Origin: Candidatus Nitrososphaera evergladensis SR1
GTDB taxonomy: Archaea; Thermoproteota; Nitrososphaeria; Nitrososphaerales; Nitrososphaeraceae
Length of the DNA: 64,000 bases
Direction: 5' to 3'
NCBI RefSeq assembly: GCF_000730285.1
Contig: NZ_CP007174.1
Location: 1,178,001-1,242,000 of the forward strand
A model generated the notes under the pieces. It made no database searches, was not told the DNA's origin, and worked only from the letters and a program-made list of their open reading frames with translations. Below, one piece after another: positions 41,876 to 44,088 of this stretch (positions are counted from its first letter, which is position 1; every line of letters begins with the position of its first letter). The translations under genes and the position numbers were made by a program.

Positions 41876-43534
41876 GTGGCGGCTGATGACCATGGTGCGT
41901 TTTTAGACTCTTTTACTGATGAAGAAAAAGCAGTGCTTGCGGGCCACTTTTCAAACGCCGACAGGGCGGTGTTTGCGGTAACTACCCCAAGGCAGGTGGA
42001 CAGGGGCGCGCTGATGTCCCGGTATTCCCGGACTGACAAGAGTATGCGCCGGGTCTTTCTTGACGAGTTTGCCAAGAACCCAAACCGGGGCGAAGAGTTT
42101 TACCGCAAGGTCTTGCTTGAATACGGCGACGACTCGGTCGCCGAGCTTGGCGAGGCGCAAGTGGCCCTTGAAGGCATATCAAACATTGCCGCAAAAAAGA
42201 TAGAGGACCGCAGGATCGGGCTTTCGTACCTGGAAAAATCGTCTCGCTATGTCCCGTTTGACAAAAAGGTCGCCGGCGGCATGTATCGCTATCTGCGGGA
42301 AGGCCGCATAATGTCGTCAAGACATGCGGACCACTACCTTGCGGCATGCGACCTTGCCTTCGATACTTATAGCAAGAGCCTGCTAGCCATGACAAATTTC
42401 CTCGAAGAGCAAGAGCCGATAGACAAGTTCTCGTTCTTTGATTCTTCGTTGCAAAAGGAAAGGCAGTTTGGCGGCCTACGGGAGCAAAAGGACATCGACG
42501 CCGCGCAGCGCATATACCGGGCTACGATAAGGGCCAAGGCGCTTGACCTTTTGCGCGGCCTCCTGCCTGCCTCCACCCTGACAAACGTCGGCATAACCGG
42601 CAACGGCAGGGCGTTTGAATACCTTCTCACGATAATGCACGGCTCGCGCCTTTCAGAGCTGCGCTCACTTGGCGAGCAGCTGTTCTCTGAACTTAACGGC
42701 GTAATACCATCGTTTGTCCGGCGCGCAAACGACAAGTACGGCCAGGCCATGCAGGCTTATTTTGCAAAGACGGAGAACGCGGTGCGGGACCTTGCAAAAA
42801 AGCACCTGTCCGGAATGAACTCAGAGTCAAGCCCTGAAAAGGTCCGGCTGCTAGAGCCGGAGGACAACTTTGCCGCCGAAGTCAAGGTGGCCTCTGCCAT
42901 CCTGTACGAGCAGGCTGACGGCAGGCCCCTTGAAAAAGTAATGAGGTACGTCAAGTCCATGCCGTCGCAGGACAGGCACGGCATAATCCGCGCATATACT
43001 CGATACCGAGAGAATCGCCGGCAGAGGCCCGGCCGGGCCTTTGAGATGGTTGACTGTATCTTTGAACTGTTCACCAACTTTGGCATGTTCCGCGACCTGC
43101 ACCGCCACCGTGTGCTCACGCTTGAGCGGCAATTGCTGTCTACGAGGCACGGCTATGACATGCCCGGGGAAATCAAAGAAGCCGGCCTTGGCAAAGAGTT
43201 TCAAGAGTGCATGTCTGCGTCAAAAGATGCCTACGAGGCGATTGCAAAAGAGATGCCGGAGGAGGCGCAGTACGTCGTCAATTTCGCGTACCGCTATCCC
43301 TACTTTATGAAGATGAACCTGCGCGAGGCCTGCCACATGGTCGAGCTTCGTACAGTGCCGCAGGGCCACCCTGACTATCGACAGGTCTGCCAGGAAATGT
43401 ACAGGCAGCTGCAAAAAGCCCACCCCGTCCTTGCGGAGGGGATCAAGTTTGCAGACATGAATTCATACCAGCTGGAGCGCTTTGACGCCGAAAAGCGCAC
43501 CGAGAAAAAGAGGCAGGAATCTGAAAGACAGTGA
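41876..43534 (+). CDS. Doubled ThyX-like protein with split motif
   Basis: A 552-residue protein built of two ThyX-like halves. The N-terminal half carries [13 protein letters not shown] and [15 protein letters not shown], which aligns with the ThyX signature RHR-x2-S-x-N-E-x-S-x-R-Y but has Arg in place of His and Leu in place of Asn. The C-terminal half retains RHR in [21 protein letters not shown] but has lost the S-x-N-E part. True ThyX is a single domain of about 220-250 aa that uses FAD to make dTMP. Whether this form is an active thymidylate synthase, or a related flavoprotein, cannot be told. The start is GTG 41876, the first in-frame start after the stop at 41867. Confidence 0.85.
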
Positions 43535-43623: not shown

Positions 43624-44088
43624 ATGGTCGATACAAGCAAGTCATCCAAGGAAGACGCAACAACGGCGACAAGCAGAGCAGAAGTGATAGAAGCAGTAAA
43701 GGACAACTATATACGCACAGTAGACGAGATCGCAAAGGTTCAGCCGCAGTATTTACAATCAATCTCTAACCTCCAGCTGGACTACATCCAGACAACCAAG
43801 AACGTGATTCAGACAGCATTCTCTGTACAAAAGCAGGTGGCAAGCAACGTGAATATCCCGGCAACTCCGTATGCAGACCTCTTTGTGAAGCAGGCAAACG
43901 AGATAACCAATAACACGATCAGGGCGGTAGGCATCAACAACCAGCTGACCATCAACGCGCTGGACGCCGCAAGGGAGAACCTAAAGATCTACAACAGGTC
44001 AATAGACGCAGTCACCGACTTTGGCACCAACGTAGCCAAGGCGTGGACCGCATTCTACACACAGTCACAGCAGCAGTTCACACGCTAA
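43624..44088 (+). CDS. Phasin-like helical protein
   Basis: A 154-residue all-helical protein rich in Ala, Gln and Asn, without membrane segments. Long amphipathic helices (YLQSISNLQLDYIQTTKNVI, VKQANEITNNTIRAVGINNQ, AARENLKIYNRSIDAVTDFG) recall phasins, which coat polyhydroxyalkanoate granules. Thaumarchaea of the Nitrososphaera group are known to carry PHA synthase genes, so a granule role is plausible, but the match is only by composition and helix pattern. It is flanked by the ATTACCAT repeat cluster upstream and a strong terminator downstream, so it is probably a well-expressed single gene. Codon choice is clean (few rare codons), in keeping with that. Confidence 0.7.
   Translation: MVDTSKSSKEDATTATSRAEVIEAVKDNYIRTVDEIAKVQPQYLQSISNLQLDYIQTTKNVIQTAFSVQKQVASNVNIPATPYADLFVKQANEITNNTIRAVGINNQLTINALDAARENLKIYNRSIDAVTDFGTNVAKAWTAFYTQSQQQFTR

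Follow-up and report, generated by a model that had tools for sequence, protein, structure and literature searches.

The doubled ThyX-like protein encoded in the window (the whole 64,000-nucleotide stretch of the Candidatus Nitrososphaera evergladensis SR1 genome that was analysed) is very likely the working thymidylate synthase of the cell, acting as a dimer of doubled chains that imitates the ThyX tetramer and contains two live, composite active sites and two dead ones. The residues that build the active site of an ordinary ThyX are divided between its two halves along the lines of published subunit roles, and the same division recurs in doubled proteins from archaea, bacteria and a phage.

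Two Thy1 domains and a divided set of active-site residues

When the halves were scanned singly with the Pfam Thy1 model (PF02511), the N-half scored 61.3 bits and the C-half 82.4 bits, both above the gathering cut-off of 24.8 bits, which upholds the description of the protein as doubled and ThyX-like that had been made from the DNA letters. Profile comparison with single-domain ThyX gave E-values of 8e-31 for all N-halves and 3e-31 for all C-halves; by profile, both halves are ThyX. An AlphaFold2 model of the whole chain, of moderate confidence (pLDDT 73.7, pTM 0.69), repeated its order of elements in both halves (e.g. E94-102/H103-111/E118-121 and E393-400/H402-409/E414-416), and its best PDB matches were ThyX structures (4fzb, 6j61 and 1kq4; target TM-score about 0.6-0.77). 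A model of the N-half alone was of poor quality, and searching PDB sequences with the whole chain returned only weak matches to Mycobacterium tuberculosis ThyX (E 0.02-0.04). Full-length relatives of the doubled protein are found in archaea and in bacteria. A pseudogene or frameshift reading of 41876-43534 was rejected because the frame is uninterrupted and its conservation extends from end to end in both. Just downstream on the same strand, a 154-aa open reading frame (window 43624-44088) has, by eye, the look of a phasin-type granule protein.

Three subunits build each active site of M. tuberculosis ThyX (PMC6514825). Subunit A contributes the RHR motif (residues 95-97) and Arg199; subunit B contributes Ser71 and Arg190, which reach the FAD phosphates; and subunit C contributes Arg87, Ser105 and Arg107 to dUMP, with Tyr108 as a lid (PMC6514825). 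Because RHR and S-x-R-Y are provided by different subunits even in ordinary ThyX, domains that hold only RHR and domains that hold only S-x-R-Y can jointly form complete sites. The preliminary description had proposed such a split signature, and it was confirmed: the N-half has SYLEKSSRY without RHR, the sequence IEDRRIGL standing before it at the RHR place of ThyX, and the C-half has RHR without S-x-x-E/Q-x-S-x-R-Y, so that the canonical one-domain motif RHR...SxxE/QxSxRY is complete in neither half. The chain as a whole (in M. tuberculosis numbering) carries RHR and R199 in its C-half and S71, S105, R107, Y108, R172 and R190 in its N-half. Feature positions are collected in the table.

Table. 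Features of the doubled ThyX gene; A, B and C are the subunit roles defined for M. tuberculosis (Mtb) ThyX.
Feature	Window positions	Strand	Remarks and basis
Doubled ThyX ORF	41876-43534	+	GTG start, 552 aa, stop included
N-terminal Thy1 domain, aa 69-278	42080..42709	+	Pfam PF02511, half scanned alone, E 1.4e-16
C-terminal Thy1 domain, aa 334-518	42875..43429	+	Pfam PF02511, half scanned alone, E 4.6e-23
GDDSVAE, aa 84-90	42125..42145	+	S87 = Mtb Ser71, B role, FAD phosphate; alignments and PMC6514825
SYLEKSSRY, aa 117-125	42224..42250	+	S122/R124/Y125 = Mtb Ser105/Arg107/Tyr108, C role, dUMP and lid; alignments and PMC6514825
RGLLP, aa 227-231	42554..42568	+	R227 = Mtb Arg172; N-halves only; putative C role
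GNGRAF, aa 242-247	42599..42616	+	R245 = Mtb Arg190, B role; alignments and PMC6514825
RPGRAFE, aa 384-390	43025..43045	+	C-half-specific motif at the place of the ThyX Ser71 loop; alignment
RHR, aa 410-412	43103..43111	+	A role, FAD; alignments and PMC6514825
VLTLERQLL, aa 413-421	43112..43138	+	C-half place of the lost dUMP motif S-x-x-E/Q-x-S-x-R-Y; alignments
MNLREA, aa 480-485	43313..43330	+	R483 = Mtb Arg190, kept in the C-half too; alignments
R492	43349..43351	+	= Mtb Arg199, A role, dUMP; alignments and PMC6514825

An HMM of single-domain ThyX by itself left some halves aligned only in part, so MAFFT was used to align the halves of 84 doubled proteins jointly with 14 single-domain ThyX sequences; the 84 came from seven divergent groups spanning archaea, Acidobacteriota, plasmids and a phage. 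Scoring covered each column that is conserved among the single-domain sequences, and then whole residue sets in each protein. R95, R97 and R199 were kept in 84/84 C-halves, and H96 in 75/84, the nine f14 proteins having Gln. S105, R107 and R172 were kept in 82/84 N-halves, the exceptions being L086, which lies on a truncated contig, and L087. Among the 84 proteins, the complete A set was absent from every N-half and the complete C set from every C-half; nor did any half contain, after alignment, the complete canonical motif that had been named beforehand as evidence against a split. Given the profile E-values and the conservation across 84/84 doubled proteins, the division of the motif is not a matter of chance. 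Instead of two defective halves, the protein presents a division of labour along known subunit roles that extends beyond this genome.

The partition is not total, because in the archaeal form Arg190 is present in both halves and the N-half has Asn in place of Arg87, a C-role residue. Nearly all N-halves keep Ser71 (Asp in five f14 proteins) and nearly all C-halves replace it, and Arg199, present in 44% of N-halves overall, is lost from the archaeal ones. Arg172 probably belongs to the C role, as judged from its segregation with the N-halves; it lies outside the list of roles in the portion of the published account that was consulted. Four residues of the C-half-specific motif (R384, P385, R387 and E390) are invariant in the alignment from archaea to Aminicenantes. 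The f14 type (L097-L106) is a shorter doubled ThyX, with open frames of about 440-496 aa and RQR for RHR in all nine C-halves.

Thymidylate supply in the genome and the class

The nearest named relatives of the genome are Nitrososphaera ammonia-oxidising archaea. A profile search of this near-complete genome (a 2.95-Mb single contig) detected one Thy1 locus, the doubled gene itself, and gave no match to ThyA (PF00303) or to thymidine kinase (PF00265). The check for a separate thyA or single-domain thyX that had been suggested at the outset thus returned neither. The genome encodes dTMP kinase and FolD; three matches are thymidylate-kinase-like, two of them adjoining (C1:39874-41219). There was also no match to dCTP deaminase (PF22769) or dUTPase (PF00692), two models that likewise missed the control Thermotoga maritima, a ThyX organism. 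No source of dUMP was thus found in this genome, which counts against a thymidylate synthase role.

Throughout the class, Thy1 was detected in 228/250 genomes and ThyA in 9/250, and a published COG count places ThyX in 4/4 Thaumarchaeota and ThyA in none (PMC5954106). Two genomes of the class have a ThyA-like gene in addition to the doubled ThyX (L051 in G121 and L054 in G063), and in two f11 genomes (G202 and G208) ThyA was detected but Thy1 was not. Cultured strains of Nitrosopumilus, a genus among the carriers of the doubled form (L013, L015), lack thymidine kinase, and thymidine is the most abundant identified metabolite that the cultures release (PMC6899801). Release of thymidine without thymidine kinase implies de novo synthesis of dTMP in a genus with the doubled form. 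In phage Tunturi_5 (L156:441-3033), the doubled ThyX gene directly follows a dCMP deaminase gene. Based on genome content, the class counts, thymidine release by Nitrosopumilus and this phage neighbour, loss of thymidylate synthesis by the doubled protein is unlikely. Ammonia-oxidising archaea rank with the most numerous microbes of soil and sea, and the doubled ThyX appears to be their only dTMP route.

A proposed composite enzyme and its alternatives

We propose that a ThyX was duplicated and fused, and that its halves then shared out the roles of the tetramer subunits. The C-half, with RHR and Arg492, would be the FAD-carrying A subunit; the N-half would be the C subunit that binds dUMP and provides the lid (Ser122, Arg124, Tyr125 and Arg227) and, in addition, the B subunit, which covers the FAD phosphates (Ser87 and Arg245). 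Pairing of two chains would give a pseudo-tetramer of four domains, with C-halves at the A and D places and N-halves at the B and C places. In this geometry, which like the assignment of each piece to a chain is inferred from the published subunit roles, two sites made of one C-half and two N-halves would be complete and presumably active, and two made of one N-half and two C-halves would be dead, having neither RHR, nor S-x-R-Y, nor the Ser71 loop. Speculatively, the dead sites may be filled by the conserved RPxRxFE motif, which the C-halves have where the Ser71 loop has been lost. Neither half is expected to work alone, because the flavin side appears to have been kept by one half only and the substrate side by the other.

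The doubled protein resembles canonical ThyX (PF02511, TIGR02170; T. maritima TM0449 and M. tuberculosis ThyX) in its fold family, in the FAD and dUMP residues of its combined halves and, by prediction, in having multi-subunit sites. It differs in that each chain has two domains where canonical ThyX has one, with RHR...SxxxSxRY incomplete in each, and in its predicted assembly, a dimer of two-domain chains with two live sites rather than four. Judged from its residues, the doubled form would work like ThyX, yet it is not canonical by either the one-domain motif or its score against the NCBIfam ThyX equivalog TIGR02170 (63.4 bits, below the curated cut-off of 87.9).

This low equivalog score is among the points in favour of a protein that no longer makes thymidylate and has turned the ThyX fold to some other flavin- or nucleotide-based chemistry, as is the existence of ThyX-fold enzymes with other substrates, the UMP/dUMP methylase PolB being among the structure matches. 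We regard such a departure as very improbable, since all catalytic residues are present when the halves are combined and the genome has no other detected dTMP route. It was one of two options in the preliminary description and has lost ground with the finding that the genome has no further Thy1 locus and no ThyA or thymidine kinase match; the other option, a composite site, has gained strong support from the distribution of residues over the halves and from the published subunit roles. A composite site could also be housed within one chain, so that a monomer would work through one A + C interface and need no second chain. Fusion of the halves would fit this arrangement, and the dUMP and flavin residues require just two subunits, but the B-role residues Ser71 and Arg190 are also in the N-half, the place of the B partner is apart from that of the C role, and published ThyX requires the tetramer for activity (PMC9931769), all of which make a self-sufficient monomer very unlikely. 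It is extremely improbable that a single half does the catalysis and that its partner is a decayed copy or one kept for regulation or as a scaffold: although such asymmetry is frequent after duplication, and the C-terminal part of the f16 protein has both RHR and SxxQxSQR, both sets fell within one half in 0/84 proteins of the type found here, and strictly conserved catalytic residues are present in both halves.

If confirmed, the dimer of doubled chains would provide a clean case of a symmetric enzyme that splits its active-site roles between duplicated halves, and would make it testable why and how homo-oligomers turn asymmetric and give up half of their sites. Its dead sites would offer inactive controls within the same enzyme for work on the debated ThyX mechanism, and the proposal refines the current annotation, 'FAD-dependent thymidylate synthase'.

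A second division of ThyX and the history of the doubled form

In the f4 and f15 types of the same class, ThyX is encoded by a pair of genes that mostly overlap, by about ten bases (L032-L034, L037-L040, L079-L082 and L107-L109), and f16 is a fused version of the small and large chains (L047, L050 and L070-L073). With f16 included in both counts, the small chain has Asp71, Glu74, His75 and Arg190 in 12/12 cases and lacks the RHR motif, R107, R172 and R199, and the large chain has RHR, S105, R107, R172 and R199 in 15/15 and has neither the Ser/Asp71 loop nor the N-terminal helix. By the published roles, the small chain would serve as B and the large chain as A and C. As in the doubled ThyX, two sorts of subunit appear to share the tetramer, each with the active-site residues that the other lacks; in f4 and f15, however, B falls to the small chain and A + C to the large, and the chains have their own genes, except in the fused f16. 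The f4/f15 division is independent support for the role-based reading. It seems fairly likely that the fourfold symmetry of ThyX has been lost at least twice, along two axes of the tetramer, with A set against B + C in the fused form of archaea, Acidobacteriota, plasmids and phages, and B against A + C in other Nitrososphaeria, each form retaining two live sites beside two dead ones. Each loss would thus have cost an essential enzyme half of its active sites.

Duplication of the ThyX domain in Chloroflexi was noted in 2009 as uncharacterised, in a paper without active-site analysis (Valas and Bourne 2009, PMC3224940). This form shares with the doubled ThyX described here the presence of two Thy1 domains per chain; the Thermomicrobium roseum protein (L159) groups with the f7 type and not directly with the archaeal type. 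Literature on division of the active site in a doubled ThyX, or on a published activity of the archaeal doubled protein, was not found in a partial search that most subscription papers lay outside. Chlamydia ThyX may also be about 530 aa long; it forms no part of the evidence used here. The Chlamydia enzyme has been assayed as active (PMC3498832).

In a tree of the halves, the midpoint root separated the C-halves (82/79) from the N-halves, which fell together with the single-domain enzymes, and the inner order of the N and C sides largely matched, as expected of one old duplication. The T. roseum halves were on the matching N and C sides; the deep branches were long and of modest support, and the long branches make the placement of f14 and f7 uncertain. 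The archaeal halves clustered with an Acidobacteriota type (support 100/97 for the N-half and 89/89 for the C-half), which suggests transfer of the doubled ThyX between domains of life. Carriers on plasmid records included Bacillus, Paenibacillus, Parabacteroides, Thermomicrobium, Miltoncostaea and Euzebya; no viral relatives were found in IMG/VR contigs. The best full-length Acidobacteriota matches were 39-45% identical to the archaeal protein, and three Acidobacteriota matches (G503, G515 and G299) had one in-frame stop codon each, which may reflect decay, assembly error or readthrough.
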